This document shows positions 42,896 to 51,080 of a stretch of DNA of 64,000 bases, in pieces (the stretch's first letter is position 1; the number at the start of each line of letters is the position of its first letter). The position numbers were made by a program, and so were the translations under genes. The notes below the pieces were generated by a model. The model saw only the letters and a list, made by a program, of their open reading frames with translations. It made no database searches and had not been told where the DNA came from. Origin of the DNA: Arthrobacter sp. 9V (GTDB taxonomy: Bacteria; Actinomycetota; Actinomycetes; Actinomycetales; Micrococcaceae); the NCBI RefSeq assembly GCF_902506065.1, contig NZ_LR732912.1, forward strand, positions 4,741,525-4,805,524. The letters run 5' to 3'.

Positions 42896-43354
42896 TCAGC
42901 AGCCCTCGAAGTCGCTGAGCACCTTCACTTTCGCTGCTGATCCGGACGAGGGATCGAACGCGTAGCCGATCCACTCCTTGGCCAGCCGGCGGGCCAACTC
43001 CACGCCCACTACTCGCTGACCCATGGTCAAAACCTGGCAGTCGTTGGACAGGATTGACCGCTCTACGGAGAACGAGTCGTGCGCAGCTGTGGCCCTGATC
43101 CCCGGTACCTTGTTGGCAGCAATGGCCACCCCGATTCCTGTGCCGCAGAACAGGATGGCACGGTCGGCTTTGCCGTCGCGGATCATCTCACCGGCCGCAA
43201 TCCCTACGTAGGGGTACGGCCGGGTGAAGTCCTCGTCCGCCCGGTTCACGCCTATATCTATGACCTCCGTGATGCGGGAGTCAACCTTGAGGTCGGCCAG
43301 GATCCGGTCTTTGTAATCAACACCGGCTTCGTCGGCGCCCACAATGATGCGCAT
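42896..43354 (-). CDS. RpiB/LacAB-family sugar-phosphate isomerase
   Basis: A 152-residue RpiB/LacAB isomerase. The start MRIIVGADEAGVDYKDRIL resembles GxDHAG of RpiB but has Glu in place of the His, a change that may reflect a different sugar phosphate. The catalytic Cys lies in ILFCGTGIGVAIAANK and the His in AAHDSFSVE. AGGAG precedes the ATG. It is last in the minus-strand arm of the catabolic locus. In mycobacterial C4-polyol routes a paralogue converts erythrulose 4-phosphate to erythrose 4-phosphate; a similar role here is inferred. Confidence 0.82.
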   Translation of the reverse strand: MRIIVGADEAGVDYKDRILADLKVDSRITEVIDIGVNRADEDFTRPYPYVGIAAGEMIRDGKADRAILFCGTGIGVAIAANKVPGIRATAAHDSFSVERSILSNDCQVLTMGQRVVGVELARRLAKEWIGYAFDPSSGSAAKVKVLSDFEGC

Positions 43355-43363
43355 GAAATTCTC

Positions 43364-45106
43364 CTAGTTACTTGCTGCGGCGGGAACGGGAACAGCGGTG
43401 AAATGAGGCCCGACGGCGGCGAACACCATCGCGAGCGACGTCGCCCCGGGATCCGGCGTGCCAAGGCTCTTCTCGGCCAACGGCCTGGCGCGTCCCTTGA
43501 GGGGGCGAAGACCTGCGGTGGAAGCAGCGGCTGAGGTAGCGTCGGCAGCCGCGGCAAGCCAGGCCTGTTCCAGGTGAGTACCGGAAGCGACGTGTTCCTC
43601 AAGCGAGGAGGCGAACGGCAACAGCGCGTCCATCATTGTTTTGTCGCCGATCTCGGCCTTTCCCAGGCTTGCGATTCGGTCCGCGAAGGCGCGAACAGAC
43701 TCGGCGAGGACATCCGGCGTCGGGGTTTCCGCGTCACCCAACCGCTCACCAAAGGCGCGAAGTCCGGCACCCCAAAGGACACCTGAGGTGCCGCCGGCTT
43801 TGTCTGCCCACGCGTCCCCGGCGGCGGCGAGCAGTGACCCGGCACCCGCGCCACGTTCAAAAGCAAGGGATGCGGCGTGCTGGGCCGCAGCGGATCCGCG
43901 AACCATGCCGCGGCCGTGATCGCCGTCGCCTGCGATTGCATCCATGTCGCCCAGCATCGCCTCGGAGGTCCGCAGCAAGGCCGCGGTGGTGTCCAAAGCT
44001 TTGAGGCACTGTGCGGCGTAGGACCGGGAGTTTTCCGTGGAGGAGTACTCGGCCGCAGTGACGGCCTCCAACTCCGCCTCCGTTGCGGTTGAAGTAGGAA
44101 CGTCGAACCCACCGGCACCCCGACGGTACGCCGGTGTCAGGGCGGGTGCTGTCCAGTACTGCTCCAGCTCCTCGTCCAGCCAGGTCAGTGTCAACGATGC
44201 CCCGGCCATGTCCAGGCTGGTGACCAGCTCGCCCACCTCGGGCATCACCAGGGTGTATCCGGCCTCGCGGAGCAGTGGAGCGATGGTGCGCCAGAGGACG
44301 AACAGTTCCTCGTGCTTGGTGGAGCCCAGGCCGTTGAGGATAACGGCCAGCCGCTTCGACGTGGAAGAAGGCGTCTCAGCCAGCACGCGTCGGACCAGCT
44401 CTTTGCCAAGTTCGACGGCGGAGGGCAGCTCAGTATCGAACAATCCAGGCTCGCCGTGGATACCCAGGCCCAGGCCCATCTGTCCCTCGGGAAGACGGAA
44501 CAAGGGCTGGTCGGCGCCGGGGAACGTGCAACCGCTGAAGGCCGTCCCGATTGTTTTCGTGAGGCTGTTGGCCTTGCGTCCCAGGCGAACCACGGAGTCG
44601 AGGTCCAGGCCGGCCTCGGCAGCGGCTCCCATGACTTTGAACACCACGAAGTCCCCTGCAATGCCCCGGCGCTTCTCAGCCTGGGACGGGGATGCGCTGG
44701 CAATGTCGTCAGTGACCAGCACGTTCTCCGTCGGGATGCCCTCGGCGGTCAGCCGTTCGCTGGCCATGCCGAAGTTCATGACATCGCCCGCGTAGTTGCC
44801 GTAGGTGAACACCACTCCTGCTCCGGAGTTGGCGGCTTTGGCCACGGAGTACGCCTGCTGCGCCGAGGGGGAGGTGAAGATATTGCCCACCACGGCACCG
44901 TCAGCGAAGCCCGGCCCGATGATGCCGGCGAAGGCCGGGTAGTGCCCGGAGCCGCCGCCCGTAATGACGGCCACCTTCGGCATTGCCGGGCGGCTGCGGC
45001 GGACAGCGCCACCCTCCACCCGGCGGACAAGGCCGGAGTGGGCGTCGCAGAAACCGGCAAGGGCTTCGTCGGCGAAGTCGGCGGGGTCGTTGAAGATTCT
45101 GGTCAT
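43364..45106 (-). CDS. Dihydroxyacetone-kinase-family ketose kinase (DhaK-DhaL fusion)
   Basis: A 580-residue single-chain ATP-dependent kinase. The DhaK half has ITGGGSGHYPAFAGIIG and the substrate-binding His in LGLGIHGEPG; the DhaL half has the nucleotide-binding AGDGDHGRGM and a Gly/Ala-rich TSGVLWGAGLRAFG. This is the length of fused dihydroxyacetone or erythrulose kinases. In mycobacteria, DerK and LerK of this family phosphorylate D- and L-erythrulose. Linked SDR and two isomerases fit a C4 or similar ketose substrate; dihydroxyacetone itself would not need them. Confidence 0.88.
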   Translation of the reverse strand: MTRIFNDPADFADEALAGFCDAHSGLVRRVEGGAVRRSRPAMPKVAVITGGGSGHYPAFAGIIGPGFADGAVVGNIFTSPSAQQAYSVAKAANSGAGVVFTYGNYAGDVMNFGMASERLTAEGIPTENVLVTDDIASASPSQAEKRRGIAGDFVVFKVMGAAAEAGLDLDSVVRLGRKANSLTKTIGTAFSGCTFPGADQPLFRLPEGQMGLGLGIHGEPGLFDTELPSAVELGKELVRRVLAETPSSTSKRLAVILNGLGSTKHEELFVLWRTIAPLLREAGYTLVMPEVGELVTSLDMAGASLTLTWLDEELEQYWTAPALTPAYRRGAGGFDVPTSTATEAELEAVTAAEYSSTENSRSYAAQCLKALDTTAALLRTSEAMLGDMDAIAGDGDHGRGMVRGSAAAQHAASLAFERGAGAGSLLAAAGDAWADKAGGTSGVLWGAGLRAFGERLGDAETPTPDVLAESVRAFADRIASLGKAEIGDKTMMDALLPFASSLEEHVASGTHLEQAWLAAAADATSAAASTAGLRPLKGRARPLAEKSLGTPDPGATSLAMVFAAVGPHFTAVPVPAAASN

Positions 45107-45138
45107 GAGGGTCCCGGGTTTCCTTCGAGCAGCTCGAA

Positions 45139-45912
45139 TTAGTGGATGTGGCTGCCGCCGTTGATGTCGATGGTGGTGCCGGTGAGGTAAGCGGAGTCCT
45201 CGGAGGAGAGGAACGTGATCACAGCGGCCACTTCCTCCGTGGTGGCGTTACGGCCCAGGGGGATGCCTGCGTTGATGGCGGCTTCCTGCTCTTCGGTGCT
45301 GCCTACGCGGATGTTGGTGTCCACGGCGCCGGGGGTGATGGCATTGACCGTCACGCCCGTATCCCCGATTTCGCGGGCGAGTGCCTTGGTGAAGCCGAGG
45401 ATGGCTGCCTTGGCTGCCGAGTAGGGGACCTTACCGAACACGCCGCCGCCGCGCTGGGCAGAGACAGATGACATGTTCACGATGCGGCCCCAGCCATTGG
45501 CAATCATGTCCGGCAGGAAGGCTCTGGTGACCAGGTAGGTGCCCGTGGCATTGACGTCCATGACCTTGTGCCACAACTCAAGAGTGGTTTCCAGGAACGG
45601 AACGGGGGAGGTGATGCCCGCGATGTTGGCCAGGGCGCCGACGGGCGGAAGGTTTCCGGCGGCAACTTCAGCGGCGACGGCGGCCTGGGCTGCAGTGACG
45701 GAAGCTTCGTTGGCCACGTCGATTTCGTAGCCAAAGGCCGGAACGTTGAATTCGTTGGCGATTTCGGCAGCAACTTTGGCGGACTTCTCGCCGTCGAGGT
45801 CCAGGATAACGACGCCCCAGCCCTGGTTGGCGTAGCGGCGGGCGGTGGTGAGGCCGATGCCGCGATCGGAGGTAGCTCCGGTAAGGACGGCGGTGCGCTG
45901 GATGGTGGTCAT
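45139..45912 (-). CDS. Short-chain dehydrogenase/reductase
   Basis: A 257-residue classical SDR with the cofactor motif TGATSDRGIG (about 12-21), NIAG, the catalytic Ser in NMSSVS and YSAAK for Tyr/Lys. Length and motifs are those of polyol dehydrogenases. Its start overlaps the stop of the upstream TIM-barrel gene by 4 bases and the kinase gene follows after 32 bases. Probable role: oxidation of a polyol to the ketose that the kinase phosphorylates. Confidence 0.87.
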   Translation of the reverse strand: MTTIQRTAVLTGATSDRGIGLTTARRYANQGWGVVILDLDGEKSAKVAAEIANEFNVPAFGYEIDVANEASVTAAQAAVAAEVAAGNLPPVGALANIAGITSPVPFLETTLELWHKVMDVNATGTYLVTRAFLPDMIANGWGRIVNMSSVSAQRGGGVFGKVPYSAAKAAILGFTKALAREIGDTGVTVNAITPGAVDTNIRVGSTEEQEAAINAGIPLGRNATTEEVAAVITFLSSEDSAYLTGTTIDINGGSHIH

Positions 45913-46784
45913 GGTGCTCCTTGAATATGAGGTGATGCGGTTTGGATGAGGTCCGTGATGAAGCTGGCCGCCTTGGCGGCAGCCGCGGGGCGTTCGTCAT
46001 GCGTGACGTCCCGGGTTTCGAGTTCGAGGGAAAAGTGGCCGGTGTAACCGGCGCCCCGCAGTGCCGCTAAACCGGCTGCGAAGTCGGCCTTGCCGCTGCC
46101 GATGCTGAGGTTGATGTTTCCGGGTTCGGTTTCCGTGGCTGGGAGGGCGTCCCGCAGATGGACGTGCTTGACCCGTGATGCGAAGCGGTTAACGAAGTCC
46201 ACCGGATCGCCGCCGGAGGCAATGATGTGGCTGAAGTCCATGACGATTCCGACGTCGGAACCGGCCAGGCGGTCGGCGAGCAACTGCGCGCGTTCCGTGT
46301 CCCGGCACAGCCGGTAGTAGTGCAGGGACTCGGTCCAGAGCTCAACGCCGAACTCCGCCGCGCGTCCGGCGGCGTGGATCAGCTGGGCTGCAACCAGGTC
46401 CACGTCCTCTTCGAGGCTCCGGACGGGATCGTCATCGATGGCGCCGCAGGGTAGAACCAAGGCTTGCGCACTGGTTTTGGCCGCCAAGGCGAGCAGCATC
46501 TCAAGGTGCCTTTCGCGCTGGTCCTGAGCGTCGGCGTCGAGCGTTGCGTTCAGATCGCCGACGTCGCCATTGACCGAGCGAACCCGCAAGCCTGATTCAC
46601 GCACGACGGCGGCAACCGCCTCCACTGCCTCGGCGTCCAGTACGTACGGAACATGGTCGCAGACGCCCGGGAGCGCGCCGAGATCGATTTCCTCGAAGCC
46701 GAGCCCTTGCATGGTGTGGAGTGCAGCGCCCAGTTCCTGATGGCGGAAGCTGATGGACGAACAGCCCAGTCGTTGATGAAACAT
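45909..46784 (-). CDS. Sugar-phosphate isomerase/epimerase (xylose-isomerase-like TIM barrel)
   Basis: A 291-residue TIM-barrel protein. Key strands are LGFEEIDLGALPG, ALVLPCGAIDDD, VELWTESLHYYRLC with the metal Glu, GIVMDFSHIIASGGDP with Asp and His, VKHVHLRDA and HFSLELETRD, which bring the usual Glu/Asp/His metal site. AGAGGATC precedes ATG 46784. In L-threitol and erythritol routes a relative (LerI) isomerises erythrulose 1-phosphate; here it is the first gene of the minus arm, transcribed from the shared operator region. Confidence 0.82.
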   Translation of the reverse strand: MFHQRLGCSSISFRHQELGAALHTMQGLGFEEIDLGALPGVCDHVPYVLDAEAVEAVAAVVRESGLRVRSVNGDVGDLNATLDADAQDQRERHLEMLLALAAKTSAQALVLPCGAIDDDPVRSLEEDVDLVAAQLIHAAGRAAEFGVELWTESLHYYRLCRDTERAQLLADRLAGSDVGIVMDFSHIIASGGDPVDFVNRFASRVKHVHLRDALPATETEPGNINLSIGSGKADFAAGLAALRGAGYTGHFSLELETRDVTHDERPAAAAKAASFITDLIQTASPHIQGAP

Positions 46785-46856
46785 GGTCGTTGATCCTCTA
46801 CATCGAAGCCTCATCGGTGAGGACTTCTAGTGATGCAAGCCACTTTAGATGCGTTA

Positions 46857-46943
46857 ACTGTCAACAGTCAACCTTCTAAGTCGACTGTTGACATTGCTGG
46901 TGCTCTGCGTCACAGTTGTCGTATTATGTTGACTGTCGACAGT
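46857..46943. promoter_or_regulatory. Divergent promoter region with ACTGT-N2-ACAGT operators
   Basis: Three sites of one palindrome: ACTGTCAACAGT (46857-46868), ACTGTTGACATT (46884-46895) and the perfect ACTGTCGACAGT (46932-46943). They lie between the divergent arms. On the minus strand, TTGACT and TAAAGT with an 18-base spacer form a promoter overlapping the first site; on the plus strand TATTAT (46922-46927) is a -10 candidate beside the third site. Most likely bound by the GntR protein encoded at 50424. Confidence 0.65.
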
Positions 46944-46989
46944 GAGGTCGCCGAAGAAGCGCCGCACTCTTCGAAAGGGAAAAAGACAG

Positions 46990-48327
46990 ATGAGCAATGA
47001 AGCTCTGACCATGCGTGGTCCGGTTCACGGAACCAAGGAAGCAAAGCGCGTCGCCGTCGGCTCAGGCGTTGGCGCAGTCATCGAAACCTATGACTTCATC
47101 GGTTTCGGCACGGCGGCCGCACTGTACTTCGGCACCGCGTTCTTCCCGGGCGCTGACCCGGTGACAGGCACTCTGGCCTCCTTCGCGACCCTCGGCGTCG
47201 GCTTCGCCGCCCGTCCCCTGGGCGGCATCATCGGAGGGCACCTCGGCGACAAATTGGGACGCAAACCCGTTCTGGTGGCATCACTGATCCTCATGGGCCT
47301 GGCCACGTTCGCAATCGGCCTGCTCCCCACCTACCAGCAAGTGGGCCTCCTGGCCCCGGCGCTCCTTGTGCTGGTCCGTGTTATCCAGGGCCTTGCGTTC
47401 GGCGCGGAATGGGGCGGTGCCATTCTGATGAGCTATGAGCACGCCCCATGGCGGAAGAAGGGTCAGTTCACGGGAATCGTGCAGGCCGGCTTCCCCGTTG
47501 GCCTCCTGCTCGCAAACCTTGTCTTCCTCAGCAGCGTTGGCCTCGGCAGCGAATGGGCCTGGCGTGTACCGTTCCTCGCCAGCATCATCCTGGTGGCTGT
47601 TGGCCTCATCATCCGTTCAAAGGTCCCTGAGTCCCCGGTGTTTGAGGACGTCAAGTCCAAGGGCGACATCGTCAAATCCCCCATCGTGGAGGTCATCAAG
47701 ACCGACTGGCGCAACATTGTCCGGGGAATCGGCCTCCGCATCGCTGAAACGGCCGGCTACGCAGTTTCCGTGACGTACATGATCTCCTACCTGCATACCA
47801 ACAAGCTCGCGGACAAGACCGAGACTTTGGTGGCTCTGTGTGTCGCAGCAGGAATCGGTATCTTTGCCACCTACTTCTGGGGCAAACTGACCGACCGCGT
47901 TGGCCGCCGGCCCGTCTATATCTGGTCCACAGCGTTCGCAGTGCTCTTCGGAGTTCCGATGTTCATGCTGGTCAACACCGGCCTGTTCTTCCTGATCATC
48001 GCCACGATCGTGATCGCCTACGCTGTATGCCAGAACTCCCTCGCCGGGGCCCAGGGCGCATGGTTCCCGGAACTGTTCCAAGCCAAGACCCGCTCCTCCG
48101 GCGCTTCGCTGTCCTACCAAATCTCCGCCATGGTGTCCGGCTTCACGCCCTTCATCACCACGCTGCTGTTCGTCAGCATGGGCTGGATGGGGCCGGCACT
48201 GCTCTTCAGCATCTACGCAGCCATCGGCCTGTGGGCCGCGCTGATCACCAAGGAAACCTGGGGCAAGCGTGAGCGTGCTTTCGCCGAAGAAGCCGCCAGC
48301 AAAACACCCCAGTCGGTAAACGCCTAA
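46990..48327 (+). CDS. MHS-family MFS transporter
   Basis: A 445-residue transporter with about 12 helices. It has the metabolite:H+ symporter (MHS) traits GAVIETYDFIGFGTAAALYF, RPLGGIIGGHLGDKLGRKPVL and GLAFGAEWGGAILMSYEHAP. The ATG at 46990 follows AAAGGGA; the frame's earlier start overlaps the operator region. It heads the plus arm and is the likely importer of the substrate of this locus, probably a polar sugar acid or polyol. A 9-bp hairpin follows before the transketolase. Confidence 0.88.
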   Translation: MSNEALTMRGPVHGTKEAKRVAVGSGVGAVIETYDFIGFGTAAALYFGTAFFPGADPVTGTLASFATLGVGFAARPLGGIIGGHLGDKLGRKPVLVASLILMGLATFAIGLLPTYQQVGLLAPALLVLVRVIQGLAFGAEWGGAILMSYEHAPWRKKGQFTGIVQAGFPVGLLLANLVFLSSVGLGSEWAWRVPFLASIILVAVGLIIRSKVPESPVFEDVKSKGDIVKSPIVEVIKTDWRNIVRGIGLRIAETAGYAVSVTYMISYLHTNKLADKTETLVALCVAAGIGIFATYFWGKLTDRVGRRPVYIWSTAFAVLFGVPMFMLVNTGLFFLIIATIVIAYAVCQNSLAGAQGAWFPELFQAKTRSSGASLSYQISAMVSGFTPFITTLLFVSMGWMGPALLFSIYAAIGLWAALITKETWGKRERAFAEEAASKTPQSVNA

Positions 48328-48342
48328 AGTACCCATCGACGT

Positions 48343-48373
48343 CGGGCGCGTTCTCCCCATCGGTACGCGCCCG
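48343..48373 (+). promoter_or_regulatory. Hairpin between transporter and transketolase
   Basis: CGGGCGCGT (48343-48351) and ACGCGCCCG (48365-48373) form a 9-bp stem with a 13-base loop, and no T tract. It lies in the 63-base gap within the presumed operon and could lower downstream expression or mark an mRNA end. Confidence 0.4.
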
Positions 48374-48390
48374 GCACCGGAAGGAAAGCT

Positions 48391-49290
48391 GTGACTCTCT
48401 CATCCACCGAAGCCAAACCCGCTTCTGTTCCCTCTCACCCGGAGCCCGAGCGCGTGGACAGCATCCGCGCTGCCGCGTACCGCATCCGCCACCACGCCCT
48501 GAACATGGGCGAAGTCCAGGGCCAAGGCTACGTCGGCCAGGCTCTCGGCGCAGCGGACATGCTCGCCGCCGTTTATGCCGACCAGTTGACGTACCGCGCT
48601 GATGACCCGCACTGGGAAGGCCGCGACCGTTTCCTGCTCTCCACCGGCCACTACGCAATCGGCCATTACGCAGCCCTGGCCGAAGCGGGAATTGTGCCCG
48701 TCTCTGAACTTGAGACCTACGGTTCCGACGATTCCCGGCTTCCCATGTCAGGCATGTCCACCTACACCCCGGGCATGGAAATCTCCGGTGGCTCGCTGGG
48801 CCATGGCCTCACTATCGCCGTCGGAATGGCGCTGGGACTCCGGGCGCAGGGCTTGCCCAACCGTGTGATCAACTTCCTCTCGGATGGCGAGCTGGACGAG
48901 GGCTCCACCTGGGAGGCGGCCATGGGCGCGCACCACCATCAACTGGGCAAGCTGACGGCGTTGGTGGACATCAACGCCCTTCAAGCAGATGGCGCCACGG
49001 ACACCGTGCTCCGCACCGAACCGGTCACGGAAAAGTGGGAATCGTTCGGCTGGTACACCCAACGCGTAGACGGGAACGACGTCGGTGCGCTGCTGGCAGC
49101 GTTCGACAACATCGCCGCCGTCGCGGCGCCAGTCGGACGGCCCTCGGTGATCCTTTGCGACACCAAGGTCGGGCGCGGTGTGCCGCTCCTGGAAACCCGC
49201 GAAAAGGCGCACTTCATGCGCATCGAAGAACACGAGTGGCAGATCTGCCGCGAACAGCTGACCGCAGGATACGAAGGGAGGGCTGCCTGA
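48391..49290 (+). CDS. Transketolase, N-terminal subunit
   Basis: A 299-residue split transketolase subunit with thiamine-diphosphate motif LSDGELDEGSTWEAAMGAHH followed by LTALVDIN, and the loop LLSTGHYAIGHYAALAEAG. GTG start with AAGGAAA upstream. Its partner gene overlaps by one base. Split enzymes are typical of sugar-catabolic loci, such as the apulose-4-phosphate and sulfosugar transketolases, as well as ordinary pentose phosphate metabolism. Confidence 0.9.
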   Translation: MTLSSTEAKPASVPSHPEPERVDSIRAAAYRIRHHALNMGEVQGQGYVGQALGAADMLAAVYADQLTYRADDPHWEGRDRFLLSTGHYAIGHYAALAEAGIVPVSELETYGSDDSRLPMSGMSTYTPGMEISGGSLGHGLTIAVGMALGLRAQGLPNRVINFLSDGELDEGSTWEAAMGAHHHQLGKLTALVDINALQADGATDTVLRTEPVTEKWESFGWYTQRVDGNDVGALLAAFDNIAAVAAPVGRPSVILCDTKVGRGVPLLETREKAHFMRIEEHEWQICREQLTAGYEGRAA

Positions 49291-50309
49291 TGAGCGCCAC
49301 CACTGAGGCCCCCGAAACCACCACCGCCGTGAAGCCTAAACTCAAGACTTCGGCCATGATCGCGTCCTTCGCGGATCCCGGGCAGAAGACCGCGTCGGCC
49401 CCGTTTGGCCACGCATTGGTTAAAGCCGCCGAGGCTGATTCCCGCATTGTTGGCTTGACCGCCGACCTTGGGAAGTACACGGACATGCACATCTTCGCCA
49501 AGGCCTTCCCGGAACGGTTCTTCCAGATGGGCATGGCCGAGCAACTTCTGTTCGGCGCTGCCGCCGGCATGGCTGAAACAGGTTTGATTCCCTTCGCTTC
49601 CACATACTCGGTTTTCGCCGCCCGCCGCGCCTACGACTTCCTCTGCCTGGACATTGCCGAGCCGAACTTGAACGTCAACATCATTGGCGGCCTTCCGGGC
49701 TTGACCACCGGATACGGTCCCAGCCACCAGGCAACGGAGGACATGGCGATCTTCCGCGGAATGCCAAACCTGACAATCGTTGACCCGTGCGACTCCGTGG
49801 ACATCGAGCAAGCCGTTCCGCAGCTTGCTGCCTCGGAGGGACCCACATACCTGCGCCTGCTGCGCGGCAATGTGCCTACTGTTCTGGACGAGTATGACTA
49901 CACGTTCGAACTCGGTAAGGCGAAAGTCCTGCGCGGCGGCAACGATGTGGTGTTCGTTTCCTCAGGTTTGATGACCATGCGTGCGCTGCAGGCTGCCGAT
50001 GCCTTGGCGAAACACAACGTTGATGTAGCCGTAGTGCACACTCCCACCATCAAGCCGTTCGACGCCGCCACCGTGCTCGCAGAGCTGAATACCGACCGCC
50101 TCGCCGTGACGCTTGAAAACCACACCGTTGTTGGCGGCCTGTTCGAAACTGTTGCCTCCGCCGTCGTCACCTCAGGTCTGGGCAAGCGCGTGGTTCCCAT
50201 TGCGCTGCCGGACCAATTCCTCGACGCCGGTGCCCTGCCAACTCTGCACGAACGGTACGGACTGTCCGTGGACCGGATTGTGGCCAAGGTGTTGGCGGAA
50301 CTTAGCTGA
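49290..50309 (+). CDS. Transketolase, C-terminal subunit
   Basis: A 339-residue subunit holding the pyrimidine-binding domain, with the cofactor-activating Glu in MGMAEQLLFGAAAGMA, the ARRAYDFL helix, the HxxxED text in SHQATEDMAIF, and a transketolase C-terminal domain. ATG 49290 overlaps the TGA of the N-terminal subunit (TGATG), so translation is coupled and equal amounts are made. Its N-terminal 40 residues are Thr/Ala-rich and probably flexible. Together with the neighbours it would feed the ketose phosphate into the pentose phosphate pool. Confidence 0.9.
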   Translation: MSATTEAPETTTAVKPKLKTSAMIASFADPGQKTASAPFGHALVKAAEADSRIVGLTADLGKYTDMHIFAKAFPERFFQMGMAEQLLFGAAAGMAETGLIPFASTYSVFAARRAYDFLCLDIAEPNLNVNIIGGLPGLTTGYGPSHQATEDMAIFRGMPNLTIVDPCDSVDIEQAVPQLAASEGPTYLRLLRGNVPTVLDEYDYTFELGKAKVLRGGNDVVFVSSGLMTMRALQAADALAKHNVDVAVVHTPTIKPFDAATVLAELNTDRLAVTLENHTVVGGLFETVASAVVTSGLGKRVVPIALPDQFLDAGALPTLHERYGLSVDRIVAKVLAELS

Positions 50310-50365
50310 CGTATGGTTTCGGGTGCGGGGCCGGCACTTGCTGCCGGTCCCGTAGTCATGCCCGT

Positions 50366-50398
50366 AGTATCAACAGTTAACACCGGACTGTCAGCAGT
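50366..50398. promoter_or_regulatory. Operator-like sites before the GntR gene
   Basis: AGTATCAACAGT (50366-50377) and ACTGTCAGCAGT (50387-50398) match the ACTGT-N2-ACAGT palindrome of the divergent promoter in 10-11 of 12 positions. They end 26 bases before the GntR start codon and imply that the regulator controls itself. Confidence 0.55.
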
Positions 50399-50423
50399 CG
50401 CCCTAAGAACCGAGGACACACCC

Positions 50424-51080
50424 ATGGCTATCACCGCCTCCCTGCTGGGCTTGGAGAAGAAAAGCCTGCGTGAACAAGCGCTGGCAGCCCTGCGCAGTGC
50501 GATCACCAGCGGCGAACTCGAGCCAGGCAGGCACCTCGTTGAAACCGAACTTTCCGAGATGCTCCAGATCAGCCGGGGCACCCTCCGCGAGGCCCTCAGG
50601 CAGTTGGAGCAGGAAGGCCTGATCTCTGCCGGGGCACGCGGCCGCATGTCCGTGCGGCACCTGGACGTCAAGGAAATTCGGGACATCTTTGCCGTGCGTG
50701 GAGTCCTGGAGTCCCTCGCGGCCCGAACCCTGAGCGACATGCCTGACAAGGAGGCCGCGCTCGCAGAGCTGCGCGCCGCCGTCGACGCTATGGACAAAGC
50801 CTCGAAGTCTTCGCTGGAGGAGCGGATCGAATCCGACCTCGAGTTCCACCGCACCCTTTGCCGCCTGTCCGGCAACGAAACGCTGCTCCATTCCTGGGAG
50901 TCCCTGGAAGGTTCCATTCGCATGTCCATTATGTTCGCCGGGCTGGAACGCGCCACCCGGAACATGAGCGTCGGGCGGCACCACGACATTGTGGCTGCCA
51001 TCGAAACCGGGAATGCCGCGAAAGCGCGGGAGACAATAATTGCTCACATGGACGTCGCCGCCGAAAACCTGGTGGGCTAA
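50424..51080 (+). CDS. GntR-family (FadR subfamily) regulator
   Basis: A 218-residue regulator. The winged helix lies at about 15-75 (SGELEPGRHLVETELSEML, then SRGTLREALRQLEQEGLI). The C-terminal all-helical FCD domain has the metal-type Asp/His text in ESDLEFHRTLCRLSGNETLL and GRHHDIVAAIETG. ATG 50424 follows GAGGAC; the frame opens earlier but those starts lie over the operator sites. It ends the plus arm and is the likely regulator of the whole locus. Confidence 0.9.
   Translation: MAITASLLGLEKKSLREQALAALRSAITSGELEPGRHLVETELSEMLQISRGTLREALRQLEQEGLISAGARGRMSVRHLDVKEIRDIFAVRGVLESLAARTLSDMPDKEAALAELRAAVDAMDKASKSSLEERIESDLEFHRTLCRLSGNETLLHSWESLEGSIRMSIMFAGLERATRNMSVGRHHDIVAAIETGNAAKARETIIAHMDVAAENLVG

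Follow-up and report, generated by a model that had tools for sequence, protein, structure and literature searches.

In the soil bacterium Arthrobacter sp. 9V (Micrococcaceae; genome of 5.1 Mb), a 64,000-nt stretch of NZ_LR732912.1 (4,741,525 to 4,805,524; hereafter the window) carries eight genes at 42896-51080, all uninterrupted open frames. They are arranged as a minus-strand operon in the order tim-sdr-dhaKL-rpiB and a divergent plus-strand operon, mhs-tktN-tktC-gntR. The locus is real and conserved, by all appearance catabolic, and very probably regulated as a unit. Every item on the parts list of an original prediction, made from the letters of this stretch alone (MHS importer, SDR, DhaK-DhaL kinase, TIM barrel, RpiB-type isomerase, split transketolase and GntR), was found at its place. 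The constant part across genomes is a split enzyme of the transketolase type, predicted to depend on thiamine diphosphate (ThDP), together with an importer and a dehydrogenase, and the context favours a small sugar acid as substrate. The features are as follows.

42896-43354, minus strand: rpiB, an RpiB/DerI-like sugar-phosphate isomerase (accessory; TIGR02133; CGTGIG motif).
43364-45106, minus strand: dhaKL, a fused DhaK-DhaL kinase (accessory; Dak1 and Dak2; NF011049 at 752 bits, above the cut-off of 492; GIHGEPG motif).
45139-45912, minus strand: sdr, a classical SDR dehydrogenase (core; PF13561/PF00106; YSAAK motif).
45909-46814, minus strand: tim, a PF01261 TIM-barrel isomerase/epimerase (accessory; PF01261 at 7.8e-25; likely start 46784).
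46857-46868, no strand: operator-like site 1, perfect ACTGTNNACAGT; this copy reads ACTGTCAACAGT.
46884-46895, no strand: operator-like site 2, 9/10 positions; this copy reads ACTGTTGACATT.
46932-46943, no strand: operator-like site 3, perfect ACTGTNNACAGT; this copy reads ACTGTCGACAGT.
46990-48327, plus strand: mhs, an MHS-family proton symporter (core importer; longest open reading frame from 46942; TIGR00883 at 352 bits, below the cut-off of 443).
48391-49290, plus strand: tktN, the ThDP-binding half of the split transketolase-like enzyme (core; PF00456; 6yak at 2.2e-53).
49290-50309, plus strand: tktC, its pyrimidine and C-terminal half (core; PF02779 and PF02780; 6yaj at 1.5e-63).
50313-51080, plus strand: gntR, a GntR/FCD regulator (core; PF00392 and PF07729; start uncertain).

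The reading as two divergent operons follows from the short minus-strand gaps and overlaps (a 4-bp overlap of tim and sdr, 32 bp between sdr and dhaKL, 9 bp between dhaKL and rpiB) and from the overlap of tktN and tktC, where the tktC ATG at 49290 shares 1 bp with the tktN stop. Judged from the sequence, the starts appear better placed at ATG 46990 for the MHS protein, at about 46784 for the TIM barrel and at 49290 for TktC. The MHS start was moved because the GTG at 46942 falls inside an operator-like site, and that of gntR is in doubt, most called relatives having about 218-225 amino acids as against 255 here. Searches with tktC used 49284-50309 as query, two residues longer than the proposed start gives. 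The nearest named relatives by tktC, among the best 80 of at least 551, are those of Paenarthrobacter aurescens TC1 (97%) and P. nicotinovorans (95%).

For comparison, 156 related loci were assembled: 40 Micrococcaceae loci with tim, 15 Micrococcaceae loci with tktC only, 21 plasmid loci and 80 loci from named genomes. The window was excluded, L158 and the transketolase-free L147 were left out of the counts, and gene labels reflect the closest protein in a small reference set rather than curated annotation. Both tktN and tktC are constant, an importer of the MHS, TRAP, ACS-MFS or GntP family lies within 5.5 kb in 152/156 loci, and a dehydrogenase does so in 155/156. The loci with no importer within this distance are L062, L169 (GntP about 6.5 kb off), L248 and L220, the last of which has no dehydrogenase there either. 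An SDR relative occurs within 5.5 kb of tktC in 40/40, 15/15, 19/21 and 73/80 of the tim, tktC-only, plasmid and named sets, respectively.

Within the Micrococcaceae, tim was found in 48 of 295 genomes (E 1e-30) and tktC in 63 (E 1e-100), including all 48 with tim. Of the 47 other tim genomes 40 were fetched, the presence of tim there being the selection criterion, and all 40 keep sdr, tktN, tktC and gntR within 8 kb of tktC, which makes this grouping more than chance. A dhaKL gene belongs to 29 of these 40 loci (in L074 about 9-10 kb distant). Ten of the eleven genomes without a local copy carry a full-length dhaKL elsewhere, with rpiB no more than 1 kb away in nine of the ten; in G031 the distant dhaKL and rpiB lie apart, and no dhaKL was found in G148 (91% complete, 430 contigs). 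In each of the 15 tktC-only loci, sdr, tktN, tktC and gntR occur within 8 kb, with mhs in 13 and GntP in two, and no relative of tim, dhaKL or rpiB was detected within 8 kb of tktC in any of them. The smallest recurring unit is thus importer, SDR, split transketolase and GntR, while tim, dhaKL and rpiB are accessories. Where the original prediction saw a complete small-sugar route, only this core recurs, and a single indivisible pathway of all eight genes was rejected, as the accessories drop out.

Fused DhaKL was found in 110/295 genomes of the family (E 1e-140), in a survey that scored up to four candidates per genome and may have missed a few distant kinases. It is present in 46/48 genomes with tim (exceptions G122 and G148), in 4/15 with tktC and without tim (G078, G086, G095 and G277) and in 60/232 of the remaining genomes, which have no tktC. 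The difference between tim and tktC-only genomes is marked (Fisher p 1.5e-7, the related genomes not being independent), and tktC-only genomes do not differ from the rest (Fisher p 1.0). In Micrococcaceae, DhaKL tracks tim and not tktC alone.

The importer is exchanged even inside this one family, since TRAP genes 47% identical to those of Shinella replace MHS in L074 (L074:11208-14000), and GntP together with a HIBADH-type enzyme does so in L057; GntP in place of MHS also occurs in L165 and L169. Among named genomes, a tktC profile scan returned at least 551 relatives, of which the best 80, all actinobacterial by title, were kept. In these loci, the genes found up to 8 kb from tktC include tktN (80), mhs (74), gntR (73) and sdr (72, plus one best matching the SDR of the second kinase locus described below). 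Accessories are less constant, with tim in 53, dhaKL in 35 and rpiB in 30 (window type) or six (second-locus type), and a HIBADH-type dehydrogenase, GntP and a DUF1537 kinase were found in seven, five and three, respectively. Plasmid records matching tktC numbered 192 at E 1e-60, most of them proteobacterial by name. Of 22 plasmid loci inspected, 21 belong to the subfamily (20 proteobacterial, one Arthrobacter); all 21 have tktN and tktC, an importer of the TRAP (12), ACS-MFS (6) or MHS (3) family, and within 5.5 kb an SDR (18), a HIBADH-type dehydrogenase (2) or both (1). Plasmid identities, among the best 60 of 223 matches, run from 97% down to 57% and then jump to below 40%, which sets the subfamily apart from other transketolases. 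The core is common to at least two phyla, with many members from soil and plants. In one Shinella plasmid locus (L137:332-4220), separate dhaK and dhaL genes adjoin the transketolase module, along with a DhaK whose annotation shows a fusion with a sugar-binding regulator.

TktN and TktC carry PF00456, PF02779 and PF02780 along with SDGE and MAEQ motifs, and are members of the transketolase (ThDP) superfamily, which is marked by these domains, the ThDP motif and a catalytic Glu. Their residues were compared with those of the full-length transketolase of the same genome and of the split transketolase of Carboxydothermus hydrogenoformans. In the subfamily the ThDP motif is intact, as are the catalytic Glu (Glu 86, the same in all 11 TktC sequences aligned), the LSxGH-type histidine, PSH, the Arg of RxxRG and histidines of the H66 and H473 type. 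In all 156 loci, which represent 147 distinct tktN and 146 distinct tktC sequences, the GHPG His is changed to Tyr, the GHPE His is lost (PMS), and THD..GEDG is replaced by LPG.T.GYG (LPGLTTGYG or a near variant). Strict patterns for the three changes matched 154, 155 and 154 of the 156 loci. On visual inspection, the five exceptions (in L065, L231, L247 and L152) retain the Tyr, have no GHPE or deviate at a single residue of the GYG segment. The phosphate-binding Arg of ATR is missing at its position in 153/156 loci and present in three, with an Arg one residue earlier in eight. The donor residues of a canonical transketolase (EC 2.2.1.1) were not found as a set in TktN-TktC. PMC7661550 names H66, H100, G114 and H473 as donor residues and describes a rise in activity with pyruvate when His100 is replaced; PMC11659671 gives head-group motifs of RSFHR for ordinary transketolases and RAFDR for the sulfofructose enzyme. 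Judged by these residues, the split transketolase is a distinct subfamily. Because the donor-site residues are replaced, the usual donors are improbable, and TktN-TktC probably performs transketolase-like ThDP chemistry on something else. The split transketolase of the original prediction stands as a two-gene architecture, but it is without several donor-binding residues of ordinary transketolases and its motif is unlike that of the sulfosugar enzyme. A separate observation concerns L158 (L158:3675-9099), the one locus inspected from the plasmid group below 40% identity. Its split transketolase, related but distinct (32-38% identity), has methylthioribose kinase/isomerase genes on one side and a RuBisCO-like protein on the other, and when aligned it likewise shows Tyr at the GHPG position and no GHPE.

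Three copies of a palindrome sit in the stretch separating both operons, and perfect ACTGTNNACAGT occurs at two places in the 5.1-Mb genome, both between these operons. At least one site with 9/10 positions is present in 98/100 intergenic regions, taken from the window and from 99 loci where mhs diverges from tim or sdr, and two or more in 84/100, compared with an average of 0.38 near-perfect sites in shuffled regions. Of 17 regions taken as non-Micrococcaceae, 15 have a near-perfect site, and no site at 9/10 was found in a 20-kb stretch containing L147. The locus GntR protein likely binds these palindromes and regulates both operons, a pairing predicted from their position. Two points weaken this. 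A reversed control pattern is just as frequent, with two genomic places and two matches on each strand, so that location and not rarity carries the weight; and the palindrome was defined on the very regions in which it was counted, so that the count reflects conservation and is not an independent test.

What the enzymes act on is suggested by three features of the context: the importer families, the alternative dehydrogenase and the DUF1537 kinase. They speak for a small sugar acid rather than for a polyol, a ketose or a sulfosugar. MHS, TRAP, ACS-MFS and GntP transporters mostly carry organic anions. A dehydrogenase of the HIBADH/threonate-dehydrogenase type stands beside the transketolase in Pantoea, Klebsiella, Plantibacter, Agromyces and others, and replaces the SDR in the Pantoea and Klebsiella plasmids and in 6/80 named loci, including Plantibacter and Agromyces. 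Directly downstream of tktC, a DUF1537 kinase is found in 3/80 named loci (Plantibacter, Agromyces and one metagenome-assembled genome). In Agrococcus (L232), a single transketolase pair lies between a HIBADH and MHS module and a gntR, mhs, tim and sdr module, as if two entry routes met at one transketolase substrate. These features point away from the C4-C5 polyol or ketose that had been proposed. Elsewhere in the genome of the window there is a single DUF1537 kinase (G000:C137:4321397-4322167), perhaps part of a threonate route.

The accessory genes may add a branch. The dhaKL product is a probable tetrulose or dihydroxyacetone kinase from its family match, and the rpiB product belongs to TIGR02133 (RPI_actino; 172.4 bits, above the curated cut-off of 168.2). 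Against NF051858 (D-erythrulose-4-phosphate isomerase) it reaches 141.9 bits, below the cut-off of 240, although the name of this model suggests a rhizobial type, so that an actinobacterial DerI may fall short of it too. The SDR has no NCBIfam name above cut-off among the best 25 of 226 matches. In the TIM barrel, E152, D183, H209 and E254, which we take to be metal ligands, are invariant across 51 aligned sequences. The AlphaFold model (mean pLDDT 95.6) has ketose 3-epimerases, IolI and Art22 as nearest folds, at no more than 22% identity among the matches listed; the protein belongs to the PF01261 sugar isomerase/epimerase superfamily, where a shared fold does not fix the reaction. It reaches 21.8 bits against the OtnI model NF043033 (cut-off 325), has NCBIfam matches below cut-off only and five weak matches to sequences of solved structures. 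No entry named OtnI or OiaC is among the fold matches listed, which does not exclude these functions. Mycobacterial LerI belongs to the triosephosphate-isomerase (TPI) family, and the TIM barrel was therefore rejected as a LerI; none of the eight locus proteins matches the TPI family. The threitol/erythritol likeness in the original prediction holds up in that the kinase and the DerI-like RpiB suggest a tetrulose branch, but not for the TIM barrel.

A second kinase locus in the same genome (L147:5588-12949, equal to G000:C137:3523587-3530948) carries on one strand a PF01261 TIM barrel (336 amino acids), dhaKL, rpiB, a 3HCDH-type (3-hydroxyacyl-CoA) dehydrogenase, an SDR, an MFS transporter and a TPI-like gene, with another GntR upstream. 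It looks like an acid-to-erythrulose route with functions similar to LerK, LerI and DerI. By analogy, the branch in the window could lead from a keto acid by way of tetrulose or dihydroxyacetone to erythrose 4-phosphate. In Actinopolyspora (L242) the branch is tied to the transketolase, since tim-sdr-GntP-dhaKL-rpiB-tktN-tktC lie on one strand.

From these patterns we infer the following sequence of steps. The MHS symporter would import the acid, and the SDR would oxidise one of its hydroxyls to give a keto acid. TktN-TktC, with ThDP, would then cleave a C-C bond of the keto acid and transfer the fragment onto an acceptor such as an aldose phosphate, with release of a small aldehyde or keto acid. 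Where tim is present, a side branch of isomerisation or epimerisation with loss of CO2, as beta-keto acids lose CO2, could provide tetrulose or dihydroxyacetone, which DhaKL would phosphorylate, RpiB converting tetrulose phosphate to erythrose 4-phosphate. The GntR protein would sit on the palindromes between the operons until released by the substrate or an intermediate. That the locus serves the GntR-controlled catabolism of a small sugar acid by these steps, with a tetronate or pentonate as the most likely substrate, is to our judgement an evenly balanced proposition.

Several observations weigh against it. To our knowledge, no enzyme of the split-transketolase subfamily has a known activity, and the substrate class is deduced from families of importers and dehydrogenases, which can be promiscuous. 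The Pantoea HIBADH-type enzyme best matches L-threonate dehydrogenase at 208 bits, below the cut-off of 350. The DUF1537 kinase is found in just 3/80 loci, and two of the three, which were scanned, best match D-threonate kinase at 74.2 and 70.9 bits, far below the cut-off of 450. The kinase of the window has no tie of its own to the transketolase in the family (4/15 tktC-only genomes versus 60/232). Losing His100 would suit a donor that has no C1 hydroxyl, which does not describe an oxidised aldonate ending in HOCH2-CO-. A sugar ABC transporter lies near 7/21 plasmid loci (one an arabinose-type set), in six of the seven with an amidohydrolase, and these loci could reflect entry of a sugar or lactone. 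Finally, the 156 loci are related by descent, some come from repeated genomes, and all were found through this tktC or tim. The loci that join ABC transporter and amidohydrolase, possibly a lactonase, are L145:11879-16365 (PF04909), L142, L143, L151, L155 and L157.

These loci also bear on an alternative substrate, a branched C5 acid or sugar such as D-apionate or apiose, which would be oxidised and cleaved to hydroxypyruvate or erythrulose, the latter being taken on by DhaKL and RpiB. A split transketolase, a DUF1537-type kinase and erythrulose are all features of apiose routes, and 6/21 plasmid loci join the module to the sugar ABC transporter and amidohydrolase. The plasmid gene tables, which are incomplete and were not searched for FGGY specifically, name no FGGY-type kinase, and we consider this substrate distinctly unlikely. 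A neutral C4 compound (threitol, erythritol or erythrulose) we regard as unlikely. Here the SDR would form erythrulose, DhaKL and RpiB would lead to erythrose 4-phosphate, and the transketolase would dispose of erythrose 4-phosphate or erythrulose. LerK and DerK belong to the dihydroxyacetone kinase family, as does the kinase of the window, and its RpiB resembles DerI (NF051858, below cut-off). A route from L-erythrulose 1-phosphate through D-erythrulose 4-phosphate to erythrose 4-phosphate is described in PMC10733421. Yet in many genomes the core has neither kinase nor RpiB, and its importers are of mostly anion-carrying families; moreover, a TPI-type enzyme occurs in L147 and not among the eight genes.

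The optional nature of DhaKL and RpiB also argues against a xylulose monophosphate route for formaldehyde, in which the transketolase would make dihydroxyacetone from formaldehyde, DhaKL would phosphorylate it and RpiB would recycle pentose phosphates. The names transketolase, DhaK and RpiB fit on paper, but the residues for holding xylulose 5-phosphate are replaced and no known formaldehyde producer is among the eight genes, which makes this route very improbable. The pairing of a split transketolase with an RpiB-like isomerase in one locus recalls a sulfosugar pathway with SqwGH and the isomerase SqwI. According to PMC11659671, the SqwGH motif RAFDR keeps both arginines and the sugar-orienting residues are conserved; in 153/156 of the present loci the first Arg position holds another residue, and sugar-orienting His/Asp are replaced. 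As no SQ isomerase or sulfoacetaldehyde enzyme is named among the listed matches of the eight genes either, this pathway has hardly any probability, and it was rejected on the mismatch of head-group motif and sugar-orienting residues. Barely credible is the view that the genes are spare pentose-phosphate enzymes, which the names transketolase and RpiB would allow. At other places the genome encodes a separate full-length transketolase with the usual motifs and a third RpiB, and the locus carries palindromes of its own; an ordinary pentose-phosphate transketolase was rejected on the first two grounds and on the altered donor residues.

Returning to the sugar-acid reading, we hold more tentatively, and with some doubt, that TktN-TktC represents a new ThDP enzyme, one whose cleavage substrate is an oxidised sugar acid in place of a sugar phosphate. 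It would define a widespread and unrecognised "transketolase" route of sugar-acid catabolism common to actinobacteria and proteobacteria, in which importers and dehydrogenases are interchangeable and the tetrulose-phosphate branch is optional. If so, an activity would be assigned to a large group of proteins annotated just as "transketolase family protein", a ThDP reaction with an altered donor site would be added that could be useful for carboligation chemistry, and the possible use by such bacteria of acids that arise when plant material and ascorbate are broken down would have an explanation.

No known family fits the locus fully, and the earlier view that its mixture of genes matches no described set agrees with the open-access literature, where no description of the core was found; given the open-access scope this is weak evidence. 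Searches there gave nothing on apulose, a resurrection-plant review as the one listed of two matches for threonate, erythronate and transketolase, and nothing matching on split transketolase with TRAP/SDR, on erythrulose/DhaK/Arthrobacter or on DUF1537/threonate dehydrogenase. For threonate in Arthrobacter the sole result was PMC12540250, where the work on strain ZBG10 is cited. A search for transketolase with fitness data gave nothing useful, and "transketolase" is absent from the main text of two candidate papers.

The OtnI family is of the PF01261 type. Like the tetronate pathways, the module is accompanied, in other genomes, by a hydroxy-acid dehydrogenase, a PF01261-type isomerase, a DUF1537 kinase and an acid-type importer. 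Unlike them, the eight genes include no OtnC decarboxylase and have a split transketolase-like ThDP enzyme instead, and the window locus has DhaKL, not DUF1537. The L-threonate and D-erythronate pathways comprise LtnD, OtnI, OtnK and OtnC, with a three-step variant in Arthrobacter sp. ZBG10 (PMC12540250). The apulose-4-phosphate transketolase AptAB is also a split enzyme of a catabolic locus, for a plant sugar, in which a sugar kinase acts before the transketolase; compared by this general description only, the core here differs in having no preceding kinase.

A DhaK-DhaL kinase and an RpiB-like isomerase are shared with the route of Mycolicibacterium smegmatis for D/L-threitol and erythritol, whose TPI-type LerI was not found among the eight genes. 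In its place stands a PF01261 TIM barrel, import is by MHS, and the split transketolase is always present while kinase and RpiB are optional. Descriptions of that route name LerK, LerI and DerI (PMC12780249, PMC10733421). SqwGH, according to PMC11659671, similarly combines a split transketolase with a sugar isomerase in a catabolic cluster, but it differs in head-group motif and sugar-orienting residues: the RAFDR motif with otherwise ordinary sugar-orienting residues was not found here, and none of the locus genes bears the name of a sulfosugar enzyme. The split transketolase of Carboxydothermus hydrogenoformans (6yaj/6yak; PMC7661550) shares the two-gene architecture and is the best solved relative of both chains; unlike TktN-TktC, in which several of them are replaced, it keeps the ordinary donor residues.

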